Assembly: GCF_000224065.1 (NCBI RefSeq)
Contig: NZ_AFWT01000002.1
Coordinates: forward strand, 62,001-126,000
Direction: 5' to 3'
From: Thiorhodococcus drewsii AZ1
GTDB taxonomy: Bacteria; Pseudomonadota; Gammaproteobacteria; Chromatiales; Chromatiaceae
Length of the DNA stretch: 64,000 nucleotides
In this document: positions 4,503 to 28,425 of the stretch, in pieces
Position numbering within the stretch: position 1 is the first letter of the stretch
Layout: every line of letters begins with the position of its first letter
Translations under genes and position numbers: made by a program
The notes under the pieces: generated by a model
What the model saw: only the letters and a program-made list of their open reading frames with translations
Databases searched by the model: none
What the model was told of the DNA's origin: nothing

Positions 4503-4950
4503 CTTTCGTTTCCTGTTCAGGTGGGTGGAGAGGATCGAATCGGGAATCCTGGCTTATCGCTGAAATGCACGTCAGTAAAAAACAACAGCGTCGTGATTTT
4601 TTTCTTTAGCGCCGCAATTCCGCTCTCCCGAAACTGAAATCCAAAATAATTGGGTGCGGGCGGCGATGGATCGACCGCTCTGGGACACAGACATTTTAGC
4701 CCACAACAGGAACATAAGTGCAACTTTTTTATAGTTTAGATGTATATTTGCAACGATCGTTATCCCAATACAACAAACAGCCGAACAGCCGAGCTAACAG
4801 CGGCCTTCGGCGCACACGAACCGGCATTGAAAGCCGTGACCATTTCACAACAGACCCGGCAAACAGGGCATTGAAGCGGCGGCCAACAGCAGACATTTTC
4901 AGATATCGGCAACAACCGCCCATCTCAATGTTTTCACCCGGAACCGATCC
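4503..4950. other. AT-richer divergent intergenic region
   Basis: No supported gene. This stretch separates the leftward ompA-family gene from the rightward gene at 4951 and is noticeably more AT-rich than its surroundings. On the minus strand TTGCAC followed 19 bases later by TAAAAT (plus positions about 4693-4722) is a weak sigma70-like candidate giving a leader of about 190 bases. Short open frames here lack ribosome sites and family resemblance. Confidence 0.4.
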
Positions 4951-5472
4951 ATGCAGCTAGAGTCCGCTTTTGACGACCGCATCCTCGGGGCCTCGAAAGG
5001 GCCGATGACGCTCGATCGAAGCAATCTGATCCGACATGCCAGCGCCCTTATGGCAAGCCAATCGCGCCGAGAGCTCGTACTGTTCGGACGAGACCTCGAC
5101 CCCCAACTCTATGACAGCCAACCATTTCTCGATGGCGTCAGACGGCTCGCCCTGCATCGCCCGTCGATCTGCGTTCGGATTCTTCTGTTCGACACACGCA
5201 AGGCGACAGGCGCCGGTCATCGTCTGATCGAGTTAAGCCGAAAGCTCACCTCCCGCATCGCCATCCAGCGCGTCTGCGAGGACGACCGCGAACGGCTCGA
5301 CGCCTTCCTGATCGCGGACGAGCGCGGCTATATCCGACGGCGTCTGGCCGATACCATGGAGGCCGTCGCCGATTTCGACAACCCCCAGGAGTCGCGCCTA
5401 CTGCGGATGGATTTCGAGCAGATGTGGGAGCGCAGCAGCCCAGACACAGAGATGCGACGCCTCTTCCTGTGA
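4951..5472 (+). CDS. DUF7931-type conserved protein
   Basis: A 173-residue soluble protein starting at ATG 4951, with a GGAA run about 8 bases upstream. It resembles the family of uncharacterised domains sometimes fused to GNAT acetyltransferases (DUF7931, from memory). Visible marks are the early helix SNLIRHASALMASQSRREL, the strand VLFGRDLDPQLYD, the strand VRILLFDTRKA and the strand DAFLIADERGYIRR, an alternation reminiscent of phospholipase D-like half-domains but without an HKD motif. It ends in an acidic helix (MDFEQMWERSS). No function is assigned. It lies 71 bases ahead of the lipase-like gene and may be cotranscribed with it. Confidence 0.7.
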   Translation: MQLESAFDDRILGASKGPMTLDRSNLIRHASALMASQSRRELVLFGRDLDPQLYDSQPFLDGVRRLALHRPSICVRILLFDTRKATGAGHRLIELSRKLTSRIAIQRVCEDDRERLDAFLIADERGYIRRRLADTMEAVADFDNPQESRLLRMDFEQMWERSSPDTEMRRLFL

Positions 5473-5543
5473 CCGATCGCTGATATCGACGCCCTCGCCG
5501 TTATTCCATGTGTTCCCGAGAATCCCGCCCGAGCCAACGCACC

Positions 5544-6623
5544 ATGCACACGCATCCCCCCACACCCAGAAGCCCGATCGGACGCCTCGGATGGCGACGA
5601 CTGACGGCGATCAGCATCCTCGCGATCGGGGCCGTCACCCTGGGATGGACCTGGTGGGCCGAGGCTCATCCTCGCCAAGAGCGGGCACTGCGCGTCTTCG
5701 TCCATCAGCAACTCGAACAGCTCTTTCCAGAGTCCATGTCGATCGAGCGGGATAGCTGGTATGGGCTCATCGAACGACGCCCCGCAACCCCCGAAACGCC
5801 TGCACGGGTTCTGCTGGTTCACGGGCTGGACGAGCCAGGCACAATCTGGGACGACCTCATTCCCGCACTCGACAAGGCGGGCCTGAGCGTCTGGGAGTTC
5901 CGCTATCCGAACGATCAGGGCGTCGATCAGAGCACCCGATACCTGGCGAAACTCTGGCCGCAGCTCCCAAAGGACCTGCCCATCGCACTGATCGGACACA
6001 GCATGGGCGGACTGGTGATCCGTGACTTCGTGACGACCTGGCTGACACCAAGCGCCGGAGCGACACACGTGCAAAGCGCCCCTCTTCTCGGAGTCATTCT
6101 GGTCGGCACCCCAAATCATGGGTCAGAGTGGGCGCGATTGCGTGTCTGGCTGGAATTGCGCGATCACCTGAGCGGCGAGCGCGAGCGGCGCTTCTCACTC
6201 TTCTCAGCACTACGCGACGGAACCGGGGAGGCGAAAATCGACCTGCGACCCGGAAGCGATTTCCTCGAAGCACTCAACGCCCGACCCTGGCCGGCAGAAA
6301 TCCCCATCCAACTGATCGGAGGACGCCTGATCCGACCCACGGAAACGATGGAACAGAGCATCGCAACCATCGGGGGCGAACTTGGATCGGACGAGTTGAC
6401 GAAACGACTGGGCGACTGGTGGTCCAGTCTCGACAAGGGGCTGGGTGACGGGGTCGTAACGCGCGCATCGCTCAGCCTTCCGAACGCAGATCCACCGATC
6501 CTCGTCGAGGGCTCTCACCGAAGGATACTGCTGCGTGCCCGAAGCGGAGACCCGCAACCGCCAGCGATCGCCCCCATTCTGAAAACACTGGAACACTGGA
6601 TCGTCGCCAGACGCAACCACTGA
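5544..6623 (+). CDS. Membrane-anchored alpha/beta hydrolase (lipase/esterase-like)
   Basis: About 359 residues. A basic N-terminus is followed by a single hydrophobic segment (about residues 18-37, AISILAIGAVTLGW), suggesting a membrane anchor or uncleaved signal. The hydrolase core shows the oxyanion strand VLLVHGLDEPG, the nucleophile elbow IALIGHSMGGLVIRD (Ser in GHSMG) and VGTPNHGSEWARL, typical of triacylglycerol-lipase or PGAP1-like hydrolases; a late His in EGSHRRIL could complete the triad. The substrate is unknown. The start is uncertain: ATG 5544 was preferred for its Arg-rich leader, but ATG 5508 is in frame and neither has a clear ribosome site. Confidence 0.8.
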   Translation: MHTHPPTPRSPIGRLGWRRLTAISILAIGAVTLGWTWWAEAHPRQERALRVFVHQQLEQLFPESMSIERDSWYGLIERRPATPETPARVLLVHGLDEPGTIWDDLIPALDKAGLSVWEFRYPNDQGVDQSTRYLAKLWPQLPKDLPIALIGHSMGGLVIRDFVTTWLTPSAGATHVQSAPLLGVILVGTPNHGSEWARLRVWLELRDHLSGERERRFSLFSALRDGTGEAKIDLRPGSDFLEALNARPWPAEIPIQLIGGRLIRPTETMEQSIATIGGELGSDELTKRLGDWWSSLDKGLGDGVVTRASLSLPNADPPILVEGSHRRILLRARSGDPQPPAIAPILKTLEHWIVARRNH

Positions 6624-6636
6624 CTCGGAGCAAGCC

Positions 6637-8178
6637 TCAAGGTACAGCCTGATCCCCAACGCGCCGAATCCGCCCGTCGAGACGCGGAGCGATCACACCC
6701 TGCTTACGGATGGCCTGGATGAGCAGGTCCGAAATCAGCCGACCGGTCATCACCGGTTCGACCATCGCCGTAAAGACGGCATAGCCGTCGCCACCCGCCG
6801 CCAGAAAGTCCGACACCACGACAGAATAGAGCCGACCCGGATCGATGGGCCGACCCGCGATAGAAGCAGACCTGAGATCGCGCCCAGCGATCTCGTAACG
6901 CACCCCAGAGACCTGCAGAAAGCCCCCGGGGCTATCCTCGGGATCCATGGAAGCGCTACGCTCCAGGGCATCGAGGATCTGCCTTCCGCTCAACCGCCCC
7001 ACGACCAGTTCGTTCCTGAACGGAAACGCCTGATAGATCTGCTTGAGCGAAATGCGTCCACGCGGAATGTCGGCACGAAAGCCACCGGCGTTGAAAAAGG
7101 CGACATCCGAGCCCGTCTCGGAACGCGCCAGGTCGGCCAGGAAATCGCCGAAGACCGCCTCGCCACGTCGAATATCCCCGCGCCGGGCGCTCAGATCGAC
7201 CCGGGTCTCACCAATCTCCTCGCCCAGACCGGCCTCCGCCTGATCGACGATCCGCGCGATCTCACGCGCCATCTCCGGATCCTCGGGCAGACTCGCCTCG
7301 ATCGGAATCAGACGATAGCCCCCCTGACGCATCGCCCCATCTCGACACACCAGATCCATCCGGCCGAGCCACTCGCCACGCTCGCCAGCCTGCAGGATGG
7401 GCACACCGGACTGGACGACCGGCTGCTGCAGCACATGATGGTTGTGACCACCGACGATGAGGTCGATCCCCCCCACCGAGTCGGCCAGACGTCTGTCCTG
7501 GGCCAGCCCTAGATGAGAGAGCACCACGACCAGATCGGCCCGATCGCGCAACTTCGGCACCAGCCGACGCGCCACGGCGACCGGATCCTCGACCTTCACC
7601 CCAACACTGTTGCGCGGATGGGTCGTCAGCAGCAGTTCGGGTGTGACGAGACCGACCACGGCAACCTTGATGCCCTCCTCGTCCAACAGAATCGAATCAG
7701 GGGTCGGCAGCGGCTCGGGGACGACACGCACGTTCGCAGCAAGAAAGGGAAATCCCACCTGCCCCGCCAAACGACGGAAAACGTCCAGCCCATAGTCGAA
7801 TTCGTGATTTCCCATGACCGCTGCGTCGAGGCCCATCCGATCGAACATCAGCACATCGGGCACACCCTGAAAAAGGGTCGAGGTCAGGGTTCCCTGCAAC
7901 AGATCCCCCGCGAACAGCAGCAGAACCGGACGTCCGGAATCCTCCGCGCGCACCCGAGTGACCACCTCGGCCAGACGCGCGAGACCTCCCCGGAATGCCT
8001 GGCCATCCAGATCCCGGAAGGGCTCCAGTTGACCGTGGAAATCATTGAAATGAAGAATCGTCAGTTCATCGCCCGAACGGCAACCGGCCAGCGTGGACCG
8101 CGCGCCGAAGGCGGCAATGACGAAGAGTAGAACAACCGTCGAGCGCCAGCGGATCCACATAGCCAAGGACCTGCACAT
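6637..8178 (-). CDS. Periplasmic 5'-nucleotidase / UshA-family metallophosphoesterase
   Basis: About 513 residues with an N-terminal signal segment (VVLLFVIAAFGARSTLA). The N-terminal calcineurin-like domain holds the dimetal motifs: ILHFNDFHG, LLFAGDLLQG, MGNHEFDYG, VVLSHLG and VGGHNHHVL. The C-terminal 5_nucleotid_C domain supplies the substrate-binding part (FFNAGGFRADIPRG, FPFRNELVV, YSVVVSDFLAAGGDGY). Enzymes of this type hydrolyse nucleotides or related phosphoesters in the periplasm. An ATG at 8178 and another in frame at 8160 are both possible; AGG 9 bases upstream slightly favours 8160. It converges with the lipase-like gene, leaving only 13 bases between stops. Confidence 0.92.
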   Translation of the reverse strand: MCRSLAMWIRWRSTVVLLFVIAAFGARSTLAGCRSGDELTILHFNDFHGQLEPFRDLDGQAFRGGLARLAEVVTRVRAEDSGRPVLLLFAGDLLQGTLTSTLFQGVPDVLMFDRMGLDAAVMGNHEFDYGLDVFRRLAGQVGFPFLAANVRVVPEPLPTPDSILLDEEGIKVAVVGLVTPELLLTTHPRNSVGVKVEDPVAVARRLVPKLRDRADLVVVLSHLGLAQDRRLADSVGGIDLIVGGHNHHVLQQPVVQSGVPILQAGERGEWLGRMDLVCRDGAMRQGGYRLIPIEASLPEDPEMAREIARIVDQAEAGLGEEIGETRVDLSARRGDIRRGEAVFGDFLADLARSETGSDVAFFNAGGFRADIPRGRISLKQIYQAFPFRNELVVGRLSGRQILDALERSASMDPEDSPGGFLQVSGVRYEIAGRDLRSASIAGRPIDPGRLYSVVVSDFLAAGGDGYAVFTAMVEPVMTGRLISDLLIQAIRKQGVIAPRLDGRIRRVGDQAVP

Positions 8179-19958: not shown

Positions 19959-22900
19959 GTGAAGCTGGTCAAGCAGGTCAAGCTCGCGTTTCACGCCGGC
20001 AGATCCCACAAGGTCTACGAGATCGATCTGTGCGAAGTGGGCCGCGACCAGTTCGTCGTCAACTTTCGCTACGGCCGATTCGGGGCCACGCTGCGCGATG
20101 GCTCCAAGACCATCGCGCCCGTGAGTCGAGCCGAGGCCGATCAGGTCTTCGACAAGCTGGTCGATGACAAGATCACCAAGGGTTACGAGCCTGCCGAGGC
20201 GCGGGCCGATCGTGCCCCACCCTCTGCTCCGGCGCCTAATCGGACCGCCAGCGTCCAGGACGAGAACGCGCCCCAGACCCAGAATGACGCCCGAGCCGAG
20301 GCCGTGCTGCGCCGTCTGCGCGATGCAGACCAATCCCGCTCGGACTGGCCGCTGGAACGCGCCATTTGGCGCGCCGGTGAGTTGGAGCTGCGCGAGGCCG
20401 AGCCCCAGATCCTCGCCATCCTCCGGACCTGCGAGCCGCGCACCCATGCCCTGCGACGCTACTGCTGTGCGTGGGCCTTGGGCCGCAGCGGATCGATCAC
20501 CGCCATCGAACCGCTACGCCGCATCTTCGAAAGCCCACGAGAGCGGAGCGATCTGCGCCAAATCGCGGGGGAAGCCCTGAGGTTGCTCTACAGCGACGCC
20601 GATCGCGAGCGGTTTCTCAGGGGTCTGATCGACACCCTGCCCTCGGCGCTGAAGACGCCAGCCAGGGAAGGCCCCGCGACCGAGGCAGCGCGGGTTCTGA
20701 GGGGGCTTGTGGAACGCAACGACTACGAGCCGCTGCATACCGCCTATCTGATCGGCAACGAGCACCTGGCGCCAGCGGTGCTCCAGGTGCTGTCGGAGCT
20801 GCCCCCATTCGCCGACAACAGCTTCCGCGCGCTCAAGCGCATCTACAAGTGCGCCGAGCTCAGACGGGACGGCCGCGCCTTCGGCCTGCTCGCCTTTCGC
20901 TTCCAGACCGAGCGCGGCGGCAATGCCTGGAGGCGCGCCTATCTCGTCAGACGCAGCTGGCGCCTGCTGCGCCGTCTGGGCGAGCTCGGCTCCAACGACT
21001 GGGTCGGCCTGGCAGTCGGTGCACTGGTGCCCTTCACGGATGCGCATGGCGGCGAGATCCAGGTCCGGCAGCAGGTGCGTTACGACCATCGAGAGAGGCG
21101 TTATTACGAGACCCAGCAGCTATGGCCGCCCTTTGCTGGGTACTGGGTCTTTTGTCAGCTGCTCTATCGCAACAGCAGGCGCTTCCGCCCCGACAAGGGG
21201 CACAAGACCTTTCGCGCCGAAGACCGCGCCGCGATCGAGCGCGATGTGCCGGAGCGTGAGGAGGCCTTTCCGGAGCTGTGGGACCGATTGCCGCAGGGCC
21301 TACTGCACCTGCTGGACGAGAGCAACTGCCTTCCGGTCCACCAGTTCGCGGTTAAGGCACTGAGGGACAATCGCGCCTTCTGCGACCAGCTCGACACCGA
21401 CGCCCTGATCATGCTGTTGTCACGGCCGTATGAGGTCACGGCCCAGCTTGGGTTCGAGCTGGCCGAGCGGCGCTATGACCCCATGCACATCGACTTCGAC
21501 CTGGTGTCCGCAGTCGCCTGCTGCGCCTACGAGCCCGCACGCCAGGCCGCCTTTCGCTGGATCGAAGGCAATCGCCAGCCCTTCCTGGCGAACAGTGGCC
21601 TGATCGCGGCCCTGGTGCTCGCGCCCCACCAAGACACCCGCGACTTGGCGAAACAGCTGCTCCTCGGGGCCATCATGCCCGAGCACCAGGCTCGGGTCCT
21701 GGTTGGGCGAATCCTGTCCGCCCTCCTGCTGCTCGGCCCGGACGACGCCGACCGAGCGGCCGGAGCCGTGGACGTCGTCATCCGGGCTCTCGCCGGACAG
21801 CTGCAGGCGATCGGCGACCCGGTGATCCGCGACCTGGCGGCGCATCCGCTGGTGGCGCTGCGGGAGCTGGCCGGGCACATCCTGCTAGCGAAAGGAAGCG
21901 CACAGGTCGCCGACGACCTGCTGCTGGCCCTGTTGCGCTCGGAGACGTCCAGCTTGCGGATCATCGGGGCACGACTGGTAGGGCAGCTCCAGGATCAGGA
22001 GCTCACCCAGCGTCCGGAGCTACTGTATGCCCTGACCTGCAGCGAGCACGCCGACCTGCGCGAGACCATCCGACCGGTGCTGGCCCGGCTCGTCGAGCGC
22101 GACCCGGCGTTCGGGGCCGCGTTTGCCGCAATGCTGGTAGAGGGTCTGCGCCAGGAGGCGCCCGATGGCGTACACAGCCATCTGCTGAGTCTCCTGCGCG
22201 ACGAACTGTCGGCCGCACTCCCCGTCTTCGGAAAAGACGAGATCTTCAAGCTCCTGCGCTGCAAGGTCCCGCAGGCCCAGGAGTTGGGCGGGCTGCTGCT
22301 GCAGCGCGACACCTTCACCGAGCCGCTGACCATCAAGGAGATCGTTCGGCTCGCCAACCACCAGGTGCTGGCGGTGCGCCAGGCCGGCTGGCAGCTCAGC
22401 GAGCGCAGTGTCGATCGCCTCAAGCAGTCGATGGCGCAGACGGTGCGTCTGCTGGACGCCAAGTGGGACGACTCCCGCGAATGGGCCTTCGGCCTGTTTC
22501 GCGACAGCTTCGATGCGAACCAGTTGACGCCCGAGGTACTCGTCGCCATCTGCGACAGCGTGCGCCCGGACGTCCAAGCCTTCGGCCGCGAGCTGATCAC
22601 CCGCTATTTCGACTCGGCGCATGGCGAGCAGTATCTGCTGAAGCTAGCCGAGCATCCATCCGAGGCGCTACAGCTGTTCGCAACCAACTACCTCGAACGC
22701 TACGCCAGCGGCAACGCGGTGCGGCTCGGCGAGCTGGAGCCCTACTTCGTCTCCATCCTCTCGCGCGTCAACAAGGGACGCATCGCCAAACGCCGGGTAC
22801 TCCAGTTCCTGGTCGCCGAAGCGCTGGCAGACGAGGCGAGCGCCCAGTTGGTGGCACGGATCTTCACGCGCCAATCCGTGACCATGGTCATCGGTGACAA

Positions 22901-23027
22901 GGCTCGGCTGATCGAAGGCATGGTGCGGATCCAACAGACCTGGCCACGGATCGCGCTGCCGCTGCAGCCGATCAATGCGCCGGAGCACGACGCACCGTCG
23001 AGCCGCAGGGGGGAATATGGAGTTTAG
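19959..23027 (+). CDS. WGR-domain protein with long HEAT/ARM-like repeat region (retron-associated)
   Basis: 1022 residues, GTG start. Residues 5-80 form a WGR domain: KVYEIDLCEVG, a strand pair, NFRYGRFGATLRDG in place of the WGR tripeptide, then a helix ending KITKGYEP. After a Pro-rich linker, most of the remainder is alpha-helical repeats of about 35-40 residues (for example AEPQILAILRTCEPRTHALR, LRYCCAWALGRSGSITAIEP, DVQAFGRELITRYF), typical of HEAT/ARM solenoids. No catalytic motif or membrane segment was found, so a scaffold or nucleic-acid sensor is plausible. WGR domains elsewhere bind DNA or regulate ADP-ribosylation (PARP). It overlaps the next gene by 11 bases, indicating translational coupling. 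ARM-type proteins accompany one class of retrons, as here. Confidence 0.8.
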   Translation: MKLVKQVKLAFHAGRSHKVYEIDLCEVGRDQFVVNFRYGRFGATLRDGSKTIAPVSRAEADQVFDKLVDDKITKGYEPAEARADRAPPSAPAPNRTASVQDENAPQTQNDARAEAVLRRLRDADQSRSDWPLERAIWRAGELELREAEPQILAILRTCEPRTHALRRYCCAWALGRSGSITAIEPLRRIFESPRERSDLRQIAGEALRLLYSDADRERFLRGLIDTLPSALKTPAREGPATEAARVLRGLVERNDYEPLHTAYLIGNEHLAPAVLQVLSELPPFADNSFRALKRIYKCAELRRDGRAFGLLAFRFQTERGGNAWRRAYLVRRSWRLLRRLGELGSNDWVGLAVGALVPFTDAHGGEIQVRQQVRYDHRERRYYETQQLWPPFAGYWVFCQLLYRNSRRFRPDKGHKTFRAEDRAAIERDVPEREEAFPELWDRLPQGLLHLLDESNCLPVHQFAVKALRDNRAFCDQLDTDALIMLLSRPYEVTAQLGFELAERRYDPMHIDFDLVSAVACCAYEPARQAAFRWIEGNRQPFLANSGLIAALVLAPHQDTRDLAKQLLLGAIMPEHQARVLVGRILSALLLLGPDDADRAAGAVDVVIRALAGQLQAIGDPVIRDLAAHPLVALRELAGHILLAKGSAQVADDLLLALLRSETSSLRIIGARLVGQLQDQELTQRPELLYALTCSEHADLRETIRPVLARLVERDPAFGAAFAAMLVEGLRQEAPDGVHSHLLSLLRDELSAALPVFGKDEIFKLLRCKVPQAQELGGLLLQRDTFTEPLTIKEIVRLANHQVLAVRQAGWQLSERSVDRLKQSMAQTVRLLDAKWDDSREWAFGLFRDSFDANQLTPEVLVAICDSVRPDVQAFGRELITRYFDSAHGEQYLLKLAEHPSEALQLFATNYLERYASGNAVRLGELEPYFVSILSRVNKGRIAKRRVLQFLVAEALADEASAQLVARIFTRQSVTMVIGDKARLIEGMVRIQQTWPRIALPLQPINAPEHDAPSSRRGEYGV

Positions 23028-24675
23028 CTACGCCTATCGCGGCAGCTCGTCGGTGCAGGGCGGTGCCGATCGCACGGATATGTCCTTTGCTCCGGACACC
23101 AAGCGCGCCCCCACCTTCTTTCGCGGCGAGCTGGCGCAATCCCTGCCGTTCCGCGAGGCCATCAGCGCCCTACACGATGTCGTGGTCTCGGATCTGCGGT
23201 TCCAGCCCAAGGATCGCACCGCCTACATGCAATGGCTCGCTACCCAAGATGAGCTCGATTGGGCGCAAGTGCTCCAGCAGCGCGGCACCCTGGGGCAGCA
23301 GATCGAGACGCTGCGTCGTGAGCTGGACGGGCTGCGCCGCACCAGCTCGGAGCGGATGGCCCCCTTCTATCGGGCGCGAAAACGCTATTTCGATTACCTC
23401 TACCGCACCGACATGGACTATTGGTACGTCCTGGATCCGGTGATCACCGTCCATCCGGACGAGCTCTTTTTCGAATGTTTCTCCCAGGACGAATCCACCT
23501 ACGGCAAGCTCGGCGCCAGCTACGAGGTGTTCACCAGCCTGGGTGAGCGCGCCTGCGGCACCACCAATGTGGACTATTCCCAGGCACTCTACGACGAATT
23601 CCAGAAGATCCGTAGCTACAAGACCACGCGGCTGGAGGTGGATCCGTCCGGCTTCGAGGTCGAGACGACGAATGAGGACAGCTACAAAGAGGTCAAGATC
23701 GACCTGCCAGACTCCTGGGTGCGCGGCTTCCTGCAGGTAAGTTCAGCGATGAGCCTACCGGCCATCACCTTCGAGCTGCACCCGATGGACATCCACAACT
23801 TCTGCTTCGTGCTGCGGCGCCACAAGGAATTGCACGGACCCCGCTCCATGCGCTACCTGCTCACGCCCGGCCAACCGGTCAAGGTCGTCTTCGAGCCCTG
23901 GAACATCGAAGTGATCTGCGCGCGCTCGATCTATCAGGGCGACACGGCCGAAGAGGTGCGGGTCTGGGGACGACGGCGCATCCATATCCTCGAGCGGCTG
24001 GTGCCGGTCGCCAAACGTTTCGTCGTCCATCTGCTCGGCAGCGGCCTCCCCGCCTTCTATGTCGCCGACCTCGGAGACATGAGCTTCACGCTGGGGCTGT
24101 CGGGCTGGACCGCCAACGACTGGTCCAGCGCCGGCAACTTCGACCTGATGGCGCCGCGTACCGACGTCGACGACCTGACCAAGCGTCGCGTCTTCGATGC
24201 CCTGAAGGAAAACTGGTACGAGGCCCCGGAGTCGCTGGCCCGGCGGCTTCAGCTCGACCGTTCCATCGTGCTGGGCGCACTGTCCGCCTACACGCAGGCC
24301 GGCCGTGCCATCTTCGACATCGACAAGGGCGTCTACCGGGTCCGTGAGCTGTCGCGCGAACCCTTACCGATGGACAGGCTGCGCTTCGCGAGTCCCAGGG
24401 AGGAGGCCGCAACGCGTCTGGTCGAAGCGCATCGCGTTTCGGTTCGGAGGAACGCCGCCCCGGATCAATGCCTGGAGCTCACGGGCACCGTCAAGGACGG
24501 AAAACACGTCCATCGAGCGATGTTGTTGCTCGATGCGGATCGACGTATGATCCAGGCTCATTGCAGCTGCAATTTCTATCAGCAGAACAAGTTGTTCCAG
24601 GGGCCATGCGAGCACATTCTGGCGCTGCGCATGGCCAAGAGTGAAAAACGTTCCTTTTGGAACCGGTTTCGGTGA
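23017..24675 (+). CDS. Winged-helix/SWIM zinc-finger protein (retron-associated, WHSWIM type)
   Basis: 552 residues. The start ATG 23017 has a G-rich ribosome site (AGGGGG) and overlaps the upstream stop. The long N-terminal part is unrecognised; residues 90-120 look coiled-coil (QQIETLRRELDGLRR). About residues 385-450 read as a winged helix (TKRRVFDALKENW, APESLARRLQL, VLGALSAYTQAGR, YRVREL). The C-terminus is a SWIM zinc finger: the Cys codons at 24562 and 24568, then 24607 with His at 24613, give CxC-x12-CxH. SWIM fingers bind DNA or protein. WH-SWIM proteins are the named partner of one retron type, supporting a toxin or effector role in this operon. No enzyme motif was identified. Confidence 0.8.
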   Translation: MEFSYAYRGSSSVQGGADRTDMSFAPDTKRAPTFFRGELAQSLPFREAISALHDVVVSDLRFQPKDRTAYMQWLATQDELDWAQVLQQRGTLGQQIETLRRELDGLRRTSSERMAPFYRARKRYFDYLYRTDMDYWYVLDPVITVHPDELFFECFSQDESTYGKLGASYEVFTSLGERACGTTNVDYSQALYDEFQKIRSYKTTRLEVDPSGFEVETTNEDSYKEVKIDLPDSWVRGFLQVSSAMSLPAITFELHPMDIHNFCFVLRRHKELHGPRSMRYLLTPGQPVKVVFEPWNIEVICARSIYQGDTAEEVRVWGRRRIHILERLVPVAKRFVVHLLGSGLPAFYVADLGDMSFTLGLSGWTANDWSSAGNFDLMAPRTDVDDLTKRRVFDALKENWYEAPESLARRLQLDRSIVLGALSAYTQAGRAIFDIDKGVYRVRELSREPLPMDRLRFASPREEAATRLVEAHRVSVRRNAAPDQCLELTGTVKDGKHVHRAMLLLDADRRMIQAHCSCNFYQQNKLFQGPCEHILALRMAKSEKRSFWNRFR

Positions 24676-24704
24676 GGAGGATCAGGCTGTCGTGGTCATC
24701 CCTT

Positions 24705-24907
24705 GTCGCGTTGCTCTCTAGAGGCGCGACATCGGAAGCGGACTCATCCTTTGCATTCTGGGCGGCGGATCGCCGTCTTTGCCAAGTGGTTATTCATGCG
24801 TCACTAGCTCGCTCTTAACTGTGGCGATACTGCCCCCTAGGTGCCTTTGCCGGTTGAATCCCTTGGATTCAAAGGTGCACCTAGGGGGCGTATCGCCTGG
24901 AGTTGAG
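24705..24907 (+). ncRNA. Candidate retron msr-msd noncoding RNA
   Basis: The gap between the SWIM gene and the reverse transcriptase holds three hairpins in the order expected of msr then msd. Hairpin 1 is 24705-24730 (GTCGCG/CGCGAC with an inner CTC/GAG). Hairpin 2 is about 24760-24778 (CGGCG, GAT, CGCCG). The third is very long, 24814-24907: CTTAACT/AGTTGAG (one G-U), GGCGATAC/GTATCGCC, one bulged T, GCCCCCTAGGTGC/GCACCTAGGGGGC perfect, and an apical TTGAATCC-CTT-GGATTCAA. The third would be the reverse-transcribed msd. The branching G and the a1/a2 repeats are not assigned with confidence; the best a1/a2 pair is GATCAGG (24680-24686) with CCTGATC (25026-25032), which is short. The true RNA may therefore extend from about 24680 to 25032. 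Confidence 0.65.
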
Positions 24908-25045
24908 ACGATCTAGTCCTGAGTCATTCGAAAGGACTCCGCGCCGCTCCGGCCCCCTCCTCACCACCCTCATCCGTGCCTGCCACCTCACCACATCCGG
25001 GCCTGTCGACCATCACCGCTGGTGCCCTGATCGCGAGGCCCGTCG

Positions 25046-26722
25046 ATGCTCGCGCCTTGTGGCTCGCCACCATCGAAGCGGCTAGTCTTTCTCGGCGCGT
25101 CCCGCACGCTCGAACAATGGCTCGCCGTCAGACCGCCCCAGATGCACGCCAACAGACCCGAGCCGAGCCGAGCCATGAGCCAACCCTCCTCTCGCCAAGC
25201 GCTGTACGATCGCATCCGCAAGAGCTCGAAGGACTCCGTCATCGTCGAGGAAATGATTCGCCTCGGATTCTGGCCGGCCGCCGGCACCATGCCGGAGGAC
25301 CCGGCGGATGAGATCCGCCGACGCGCCGAGCTCGAGGCCCAGCTGCGCGCGCTGCGCACCGAGCAGACCAGGCTTCACAATATCGAGGCGCTCAAGCGCG
25401 AGGTCCGCAAGCGGCGCATGGCCGAGGCCCGTGAGCGCCGCAAGGAGACCAAGGCCCGCAAGCTGGCCGAACGCCAGGCGCGGGCCGAGACCTGGAAGGC
25501 CAAGAAAGAAACGGATATCGGATTTCTCGGGGAAGGAGTGTCCGCCGGGCTCGGGCACAAGGGCTGCGACGCCGAGCGGTTGGCCGAGCACGGCCTTCCC
25601 GAGCTCGCCGACGCGGCGGCGGTGGCGGCGGCCATGGGGATCGACCTCGGCACCCTACGCTTCCTCGCCTATGCATGCACGACCAGTCGGGTCAGTCACT
25701 ATGTGCATTTCTTCATTCCCAAACGCACCGGCGGTAAGCGCGCGATCTCGGCGCCCATGCCCAAGCTCAAGCATGCGCAGCACTGGATCCTGGCCAACGT
25801 GCTCGACCCGGTCGCGCTCGACGAGCATGCCCACGGCTTTCGTCACGGGCGCTCCATCCTCACCAACGCCCAACCCCATCTGGGGTCCCGGGTGGTCGTC
25901 AACTGCGACCTGCAGAATTTCTTCCCCACCGTCAGCTATCGCCGTACCAAAGGGCTGTTCCAATCCCTCGGTTATGGCGAGCAGGTCGCCTCGATCTTCG
26001 GACTGATCTGCACCGCGCCGGAGACCCAGGAAGTGGAGCTCGACGGCCAGCGCTATTTCGTGGCGCTCGGCGATCGGGTCCTGCCGCAAGGATCGCCGGC
26101 CAGCCCGGCCATTACGAACCTCATCTGTCGCGGCCTGGATCGGGCGCTGGAGAAGACCGCCCGTCAGCTCGGTTTTCGCTACACGCGTTACGCCGACGAC
26201 CTGAGCTTCTCCTCCGACGATGCCAATGCAGACGTGGGCCGATTGCTGGGACGAGTCCGGTGGCTGGTGCAACGCCACGGGTTCGTCGTCCACCCGGACA
26301 AGACACGGGTGCTCAGGCAGAGCCGGCGACAGGAGGTGACCGGGATCGTGGTCAACGAGCGCCCTGCGGTGCCTCGGGAGACCCTCAGGCGGTTCCGCGC
26401 CACGCTCTTTCAGATCGAAAAGGACGGCCCGGCAGGCAAGCGCTGGGGCCGTGCCACAGGCGATAACGGCGTCGACCTGATGGCCGCCATCGAAGGGTTC
26501 GCCAACTATGTCGCGATGGTGGATCCGGCCAAGGGTCGGCCGCTCAAGGCGCAAGTGGCCGCGCTGATCGCCCGCTACCCGAAGCAGGCTACCCCCTTCA
26601 AGGGCCGCAGACGCCCCAGCCAATCGACTGACAGCCCGACGAGCGAGCCGAAGCGCGACGCTACAGCGCCCGAAGTCGTCGATGGCACGAAGAAAAAGAA
26701 GAACTGGTGGAAGCTGTTTTAG
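25046..26722 (+). CDS. Retron-type reverse transcriptase
   Basis: Up to 558 residues. The RT palm is clear: fingers KRAISAPMPKLKHAQHWIL, motif A VVNCDLQNFFPTV, motif B LPQGSPASPAITNL, and the active site YADD at 26189-26200. Two hallmarks of retron RTs are present: NAxxH as NAQPH (25865-25879, region X) and VTG (26336-26344, region Y). An unusual charged coiled-coil of about 70 residues (ELEAQLRALRTEQTRL onward, Arg/Lys/Glu rich) precedes the palm, and a Lys-rich tail ends the protein (TKKKKNWWKLF). Start: ATG 25046 has GAGG 7 bases upstream, but family resemblance begins only at MSQPSSRQALYDRIRKS (ATG 25175). It would copy the structured RNA just upstream into msDNA. Confidence 0.92.
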   Translation: MLAPCGSPPSKRLVFLGASRTLEQWLAVRPPQMHANRPEPSRAMSQPSSRQALYDRIRKSSKDSVIVEEMIRLGFWPAAGTMPEDPADEIRRRAELEAQLRALRTEQTRLHNIEALKREVRKRRMAEARERRKETKARKLAERQARAETWKAKKETDIGFLGEGVSAGLGHKGCDAERLAEHGLPELADAAAVAAAMGIDLGTLRFLAYACTTSRVSHYVHFFIPKRTGGKRAISAPMPKLKHAQHWILANVLDPVALDEHAHGFRHGRSILTNAQPHLGSRVVVNCDLQNFFPTVSYRRTKGLFQSLGYGEQVASIFGLICTAPETQEVELDGQRYFVALGDRVLPQGSPASPAITNLICRGLDRALEKTARQLGFRYTRYADDLSFSSDDANADVGRLLGRVRWLVQRHGFVVHPDKTRVLRQSRRQEVTGIVVNERPAVPRETLRRFRATLFQIEKDGPAGKRWGRATGDNGVDLMAAIEGFANYVAMVDPAKGRPLKAQVAALIARYPKQATPFKGRRRPSQSTDSPTSEPKRDATAPEVVDGTKKKKNWWKLF

Positions 26723-27000: not shown

Positions 27001-28425
27001 ATGGCCGACCAATTAGAGTATCTCGAGCTCTCCGAAGCGGAAGGTAGCGCTCACAAGTTCTACGAAGTCGCGGTGAACGACTGTCTCCTGACCATCCGCT
27101 ACGGGCGTATCGGCGACCAGGGACAGCGCCAGGAAAAGAGCTTTCCCAGTCATGAACAGGCGCTCGCCGAGGCCAAGAAGAAGATCAGCGCAAAGAAGAA
27201 GAAGGGCTACGAGAACGCGGTGATGGGGGTTCGCCAAAAACGCGCGATCACCCGACGCGCCACCGCCAGCTCGCCATCCAGATCCAAGCCATCGCCGGTG
27301 ATCTGGCGCTTCGAGACCGGCGCCGCCACCTTTGGCATTTTCGTCGACGAGACGTCCGTGTGGGCCGGCACCCAGGCCGGGCGTGTCTTCCGTCTCAGCC
27401 ACGAGGGCAACGTCACCCATCAGTTCAAGCTGCCCGACGGCGTCAAATGCATCGTCGCCGACGACGATTGGCTCTACGCCGGCTGCGACGACGGCAAGGT
27501 CTACGACCTCTCGTCCAAGGCGCCAATGGTGGCCTACGAGATCCACGAAAGCACCGATATCTATTGGCTCGATATCGCCGATGGCGTGCTCGGCGTGGCG
27601 GACGCCAACGGCAAGATCGTGATCATCAACCACGACGACGAATCCCAGTGGGAGAAACAGTCCCGTGGCAAGTCGGGCTGGATGGTGCGTTGCGACGAGC
27701 TTGGCGTCTACCACGGCCACACCGGCGGCATCACCATGTACGACTGGGAGGATGGCACCCAGATCTGGCACGCGAACACCGATGGCCAGGTCCTGTTCGG
27801 CTGGCAGGAAGAATCCCATGTCTATGCCGCCACCAGCGCGGACAAGGTGCTGCAGTTCACCAAGCGTGGCGAGCCGGGTCATACCTATGTGTGTGACAGC
27901 ACGGTCTATTCCTGTGCGACTGCGGAGGATGGCAAATACGTCTTTGCCGGTGACAACAGTTCATCCGTCTATTGCTTCGCCGAGGACGGCAAGCGGATCT
28001 GGAAGCTGGCCACCCGCTGCGGCTCGGCCCTGTCCATGCAATACCATCGCGATCGCCTCTATATCGTCACCTCGGACGGCACGCTCGCCTGTCTCGACGT
28101 CTCCGATGCCGCGATCGAGGCAGCAGAAGCCGGCACGGTGCCCGAGGCCAAGACCTTTACCGCACCCACGGAGGCCGCCGCTGCCCAGGTTCAATCGAGC
28201 GTCGAGCGCGTCGACAACGCCGGTGACAAGGTGGTGGTCGAGTGCTATCAGGAGGGCTCCAAGTTACGGGTACGAGTGGTGAGTGCAGGCTATGAGGCCT
28301 GGAACGTCCAGTTCCCGAAGAACATCCGCGAAGCGGGTCGCCGCTATGTCGTGGACGAGCTGCGCCCCTCCTCGCGCGGCAACTTCTATCGCGCCTATGG
28401 CGAGATCAAAAGGCTCGACGACTGA
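27001..28425 (+). CDS. WGR-domain protein with beta-propeller (WD/PQQ-like) repeats
   Basis: 474 residues, ATG 27001 with AGGAG 6 bases upstream. Residues 5-80 are a WGR domain (AHKFYEVAVNDCLLTIRYGR, then KSFPSHEQALAEAKKKISAK). A basic linker follows. Residues 100-375 make repeated beta-sheet blades, each with a W-x-G or YAGxDDGKVY-like turn (VWAGTQAGRVFRL, LYAGCDDGKVYDL, VYAATSADKVLQF, YVFAGDNSSSVYCF, LYIVTSDGTLACLD), consistent with a PQQ/WD-like propeller. The last 80 residues are a separate domain. No catalytic residues were recognised. Its WGR domain pairs with that of the first gene of the island, suggesting a shared system. Confidence 0.75.
   Translation: MADQLEYLELSEAEGSAHKFYEVAVNDCLLTIRYGRIGDQGQRQEKSFPSHEQALAEAKKKISAKKKKGYENAVMGVRQKRAITRRATASSPSRSKPSPVIWRFETGAATFGIFVDETSVWAGTQAGRVFRLSHEGNVTHQFKLPDGVKCIVADDDWLYAGCDDGKVYDLSSKAPMVAYEIHESTDIYWLDIADGVLGVADANGKIVIINHDDESQWEKQSRGKSGWMVRCDELGVYHGHTGGITMYDWEDGTQIWHANTDGQVLFGWQEESHVYAATSADKVLQFTKRGEPGHTYVCDSTVYSCATAEDGKYVFAGDNSSSVYCFAEDGKRIWKLATRCGSALSMQYHRDRLYIVTSDGTLACLDVSDAAIEAAEAGTVPEAKTFTAPTEAAAAQVQSSVERVDNAGDKVVVECYQEGSKLRVRVVSAGYEAWNVQFPKNIREAGRRYVVDELRPSSRGNFYRAYGEIKRLDD

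Follow-up and report, generated by a model that had tools for sequence, protein, structure and literature searches.

A probable type XIII retron in Thiorhodococcus drewsii AZ1 with a covarying msr-msd RNA and a predicted clamp-like partner protein

Retrons are bacterial elements that defend against phages and produce a small molecule of DNA and RNA joined by a branch. The type XIII class stems from the retron classification of Mestre et al. 2020, as it is cited in PMC9252829, and is defined here by the PADLOC models for this type. Our search of the open literature found no account of the mechanism of type XIII retrons; the general scheme, phage defence by effector release, comes from other retron types (PMC12548924). 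Retron reverse transcriptases (RTs) have the hallmark motifs NAxxH, YADD and VTG, an msr core consisting of an 8-bp stem with a 3-nt loop is required for RT binding, and the published retrons include msDNA Ne144 of Nannocystis exedens, with RT-Nex2 (PMC6868368).

The DNA analysed here, hereafter the window, is the whole stretch of 64,000 nucleotides from T. drewsii AZ1 (contig NZ_AFWT01000002.1, positions 62,001 to 126,000), and it very probably contains a complete type XIII retron, a new member of the known type, whose template RNA gene is the msr-msd RNA described below. The window harbors the canonical type XIII gene order, in which a WGR/HEAT gene is followed by a SWIM gene, the noncoding RNA (ncRNA) and the RT gene, and every operon protein matches its own PADLOC type XIII model (WGR_XIII, SWIM_XIII and RT_XIII). 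The RT gene (25175-26722, plus strand) matches RT_XIII with E = 5.8e-185 and a score of 613.8 bits, compared with 296 for the next RT model in PADLOC. Its start at 25175, ATGAGCCAACCC, is conserved, within a reading frame open from 25046, and the encoded protein carries NAxPH, YADD and VTG in columns that are invariant across 22 homologues. Profile searches identify the Ec86 and Ec67 retron RTs as its closest solved relatives. Collectively, the three PADLOC models, the RT motifs and the kinship to Ec86 and Ec67 thus argue strongly that the locus is a type XIII retron. The host genome also contains further RT-like genes, at C126:96357-97088, C140:231288-231887 and C137:797-1318, which lack a type XIII ncRNA match.

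When genomes were scanned with the RT, 36 loci were recovered at 43-59% identity, from Cyanobacteria, Myxococcota, Acidobacteria, Bacteroidota, Planctomycetes and others. The order WGR-SWIM-ncRNA-RT is present in 23 of the 36, and five more retain the ncRNA with a changed set or order of neighbours, such that about 28 type XIII loci besides the window have an ncRNA at the same place 5' of the RT. These homologous ncRNAs align to the window almost gap-free in the msr. A covariance model built from 17 of them, with the window left out, matches the window at 24747-24937 with 147.2 bits (E = 3e-40, model positions 1-190), and this is its only match both in the 64 kb and in the 5.5-Mb host genome. 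Rfam contained no family matching the ncRNA at gathering or relaxed thresholds.

Several of the related loci depart from the common arrangement. Two tandem ncRNA copies precede one RT in L038 (5081-5270 and 5348-5538) and in L032 (6489-6652 and 6691-6853, in a record with short N runs), and the gene order is changed in L051 and L053. In the cyanobacterial locus L022, two genes separate the ncRNA from the RT (4904-5806 and 6113-6886), one RNase III-like and the other resembling a NYN nuclease on visual inspection; the RNase III-like frame is also found in L021. L045 has the order WGR-SWIM-RT with no room for an ncRNA (6972-6983) and no covariance model match.

The ncRNA of the window spans about 24671-24965. 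The first-pass annotation had set its limits at 24680 and 25032; an ncRNA does lie there, but its 5' limit moves to 24671, where it overlaps the SWIM stop codon, and its 3' limit to about 24965. The RNA folding which that annotation had proposed as a check gave, for 24671-24966, a minimum energy of -155.5 kcal/mol, compared with -107.5 +/- 4.9 in dinucleotide shuffles (z = -9.8, 0 of 200 shuffles). The predicted cDNA strand also folds far better than its shuffles (z = -10), and the 94-nt stretch of the long stem as first drawn was among the most stable in a stability scan of the window. All three hairpins proposed at first pass are present in the minimum-energy fold. The long interrupted msd stem-loop had been placed at 24814-24907; its 13-bp core (24832-24844/24877-24889) and 8-bp apical stem (24854-24861/24865-24872) are as described, while fold and covariation extend it to 24803-24917 (plus strand). 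The conserved msr hairpin (24760-24778, plus strand) pairs 24760-24767 with 24771-24778 (P 0.94), forming an 8-bp stem closed by a GAT loop.

Covariation was counted on a MAFFT alignment not fitted to a structure. In this alignment 92.5% of cells pair, compared with 74.5% in shuffles and 33-40% when the partners were slid, and covariation scores 0.50, compared with 0.17 after shuffling (0 of 500 shuffles). The msd stem covaries along its whole length (helices 4-6), and the msr hairpin, which is mostly invariant, contains two compensated pairs. The first-pass annotation had named a lack of compensatory covariation in homologues as one result that would refute an msr-msd RNA; instead, two-sided changes occur in 31 of the 49 pairs of the MAFFT alignment. 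Its reading of the region as an msr-msd RNA is thus borne out by the position 5' of a PADLOC type XIII RT, by retention in about 28 loci and by the strong covariation.

The closing stem and the branching G, which were not clear at first pass, can now be assigned from the fold and the homologues. The a1 arm (24671-24752, plus strand; fold, with covariation of its inner pairs) and the a2 arm (24931-24965, plus strand; fold and covariation) form an interrupted stem of about 31 bp, with helices of 10, 5, 5, 5 and 6 bp whose a1 strands are 24671-24680, 24685-24689, 24692-24696, 24738-24742 and 24747-24752; this full-fold stem supersedes the 7-bp pair that had been the best earlier candidate. Taken by itself, its outer helix has no more than moderate significance, since a perfect 10-nt complementary run arises in 65 of 5,000 shuffles; for the inner helix, homology provides support. 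When a1 and a2 of the window were tested as a plain two-strand duplex, significance was weak (z = -1.65), because a duplex search cannot skip a hairpin inserted in a1, and it was the full fold that resolved the two arms. The inserted hairpin (24699-24736, plus strand), seen in the fold and not in the homologues read, contains an 8-bp helix (24704-24711/24724-24731, P about 0.99). Thus, of the two short hairpins previously taken together as msr hairpins preceding the msd, 24760-24778 is indeed the msr hairpin, but 24705-24730 is a non-conserved insertion in a1.

In the homologues, the closing stem starts directly ahead of the G in CTTG or CTAG, and the opposite strand of this stem begins directly after CG|AAGG. 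The distance from this G to a2 is 175-180 nt (188 in one homologue) and 178 nt in the window. Each of the 18 sequences counted forms the three pairs adjoining the G. The first pair is T-A in 16 of them and A-T in two from Nannocystis; at the third, 16 have C-G, and the window and L046 carry T-A, a compensated change. The conserved position of the G, the spacing and the closing stem together point to 24753 (plus strand; TTTG|CAT), a position that is kept in all homologues and abuts the a1/a2 stem, as the branching G, and to 24930 as the first template base, both being predicted by analogy with known retrons (PMC6868368).

The length of the msDNA can be predicted by transfer from N. exedens. In N. 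exedens DSM 71, locus L042 contains an ncRNA of the same covariance-model family as the window, and the genome contains one further, partial model match (model positions 42-169) at L059:1501-1628 (G092:C1:6825566-6825693). This diverged partial msd copy, likely a retrotransposed one, aligns from L042 position 6775 on, with no similarity before 6775, and the interval between this position and 6917, where the cDNA is predicted to start, measures 143 nt. Because the partial copy begins at the predicted cDNA 3' end, the N. exedens msDNA is taken to be 143 nt long, and the corresponding msd template in the window is 24788-24930 (plus strand), with a predicted msDNA of about 143 nt whose 5' end would be CGAATGACTC on the minus strand. 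The earlier size of about 90 nt is therefore too short. The msr would extend from 24753 to 24787 (plus strand), up to the predicted msd start, and a short msr-msd overlap is expected. The 143-nt length and the partial copy fit an identification of L042 with retron Ne144.

Three other readings of the ncRNA were weighed. The hairpins between the SWIM and RT genes might be an intrinsic terminator or attenuator and not a template RNA, as they are intergenic, lie inside an operon and are very stable. This reading was dropped when no terminator pattern was found at the long hairpin; moreover, a terminator would not need a 190-nt architecture with msr hairpin and closing stem that is conserved across phyla together with the RT, and we regard it as having almost no chance of being correct. 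The msr-msd as it was earlier drawn, with two msr hairpins (24705-24730 and 24760-24778) and an msd of about 90 nt (24814-24907), is very improbable as well. Although its hairpins do fold as described, the first of them is located upstream of the conserved position of the branch G and is missing from homologues, conserved pairing widens the long stem to 24803-24917, and a cDNA made as in known retrons would have to begin next to a2, at 24930.

The locus could also be a type XIII retron with a decaying ncRNA, in which the interrupted a1/a2 stem and the inserted hairpin no longer support priming. Here a1/a2 is less regular than in the homologues and a1 does contain the extra hairpin, but the conserved msr and msd elements and the inner a1/a2 pairs are all intact, the inner helix carries a compensated pair, and the RT, SWIM and WGR reading frames are intact, which makes decay improbable. 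The reading that we retain is a complete type XIII retron that includes its template RNA.

The two partner proteins contain no recognisable catalytic domain. The WGR_XIII protein (19959-23027, plus strand; PADLOC E = 0, with Pfam WGR and HEAT matches) harbors a PARP-like WGR domain on a HEAT/ARM solenoid, and its AF2 model (mean pLDDT 86.6) matches HEAT/ARM solenoids. The SWIM_XIII zinc-finger protein (23017-24675, plus strand; PADLOC E = 1.8e-240), whose start at 23017 is conserved within a frame open from 22975, is predicted to combine a PCNA-like clamp fold with a winged helix and a SWIM finger. In a Foldseek comparison of its model with the PDB, all top 50 matches are clamps (PCNA and 9-1-1), the best being 7ti8_G (E = 2.7e-8, probability 1.00; target TM 0.66 over 243 columns), and in BFVD the model matches viral PCNAs (E = 9.3e-9). 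Only one model was available, with a mean pLDDT of 67.9 and values of about 80-95 over most of residues 245-360. Its second clamp domain is confident: residues 250-361 form beta-alpha-beta-beta-beta twice, which equals one full clamp domain. The first domain is weaker and would comprise about residues 35-227, with a coiled-coil insertion.

Sequence profiles from Pfam, PHROGs and PDB gave no clamp signal for SWIM_XIII. Profile-profile comparison with DnaN and T4 gp45 also gave none, and this test is uninformative because its positive control, DnaN against gp45, failed likewise; no PCNA was recognised among the proteins tested from halovirus HVTV-1, which had been sought for the profile comparison. 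We consider a clamp fold of SWIM_XIII likely, and what it would mean for function a hypothesis. A search of the open literature found no paper joining retrons with sliding clamps in this sense. The SWIM_XIII model also matches in the control genome, that of the archaeon Methanosarcina acetivorans.

Downstream of the RT, the window contains a gene for a WGR and beta-propeller protein (27001-28425, plus strand; Pfam), a possible fourth component on the basis of linked relatives and co-occurrence. Relatives with 54-64% identity are located in the flanks of L032 (1-1059), L037 (185-1699) and L051 (9719-11164), such that the gene adjoins type XIII retrons in four unrelated genomes, including that of the window. 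Full-length copies occur in two of the 369 genomes of the class, the host genome and G057, both of which are among the eight SWIM_XIII-positive genomes of these 369; in G057 the copy and the RT lie on different contigs. Some type XIII loci may comprise the WGR/beta-propeller gene as a fourth component.

These features are compatible with the following course of events. The ncRNA (about 24671-24965) would probably be made within the transcript of the WGR-SWIM-RT operon or be processed out of it. The a1/a2 pairing, supported by structure and covariation, would place the 2'-OH of G24753 opposite the template end and so permit priming. By homology, the RT would bind the conserved 8-bp/3-nt msr hairpin and copy from 24930 back to about 24788 into a single-stranded DNA of about 143 nt, which would fold into the long interrupted hairpin and remain linked to the msr via a 2'-5' linkage, with the template RNA being removed by RNase H as in known retrons. 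If type XIII follows other retron types (PMC12548924), the RT and msDNA would restrain the WGR/HEAT and SWIM proteins, which phage disturbance would free, resulting in a growth stop.

How the effector acts may be indicated by its predicted folds. The PCNA-like fold predicted beside a winged helix and a zinc finger in the SWIM protein, and the WGR domain on a solenoid, suggest an effector that would act on DNA or the replisome and not by NAD, tRNA or protease chemistry. We tentatively propose, as a possibility that is on balance doubtful, that in type XIII a PCNA/9-1-1-like clamp is the partner of the msDNA. In this proposal the long msDNA hairpin, bound by the clamp-like SWIM protein and the WGR/HEAT scaffold, would sense replication or DNA ends or act as a decoy for them, and the clamp-like protein, once freed, would block the replication of phage or host DNA. 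If correct, this would define a class of retron effectors that does not rely on an enzymatic toxin.

Thus, what was a tentative reading becomes a defined retron, for which the branch G, a1/a2, the msd limits and the msDNA length are predicted and testable. The ncRNA assignments apply to a family spread over several phyla, and through the inferred identity of L042 they connect type XIII with msDNA Ne144, which is known from biochemistry. The clamp fold predicted for the SWIM protein, in turn, provides a concrete structural handle on type XIII effector action.

Comparison with known systems places the locus most closely with the other type XIII retrons, which have the same three protein models, gene order and ncRNA 5' of the RT, the nearest RT found being 59% identical to that of the window. 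The window differs from them in the hairpin inserted in a1 and in its downstream WGR/beta-propeller gene. Retron Ne144 of N. exedens shares with the window the ncRNA family and the 143-nt msDNA prediction, and the N. exedens RT and SWIM proteins are likewise type XIII by PADLOC. However, the Nannocystis branch site is TAGC compared with TTGC in the window, and the Nannocystis a1/a2 is long and uninterrupted, whereas that of the window is interrupted. Compared with the PCNA and 9-1-1 clamps, the SWIM protein is predicted to share their fold over about 240 residues, but no sequence similarity to them was detected and, unlike them, it contains the added coiled-coil insertion, winged helix and SWIM finger. 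Retron-Eco1 (Ec86) has the closest solved RT by profile (E = 1.3e-69) and, as in the window, an msr core of an 8-bp stem with a 3-nt loop (PMC6868368). In contrast to the window, Ec86 employs other effector genes, with no WGR or SWIM proteins, and its RT lacks the long N-terminal extension of the window RT.
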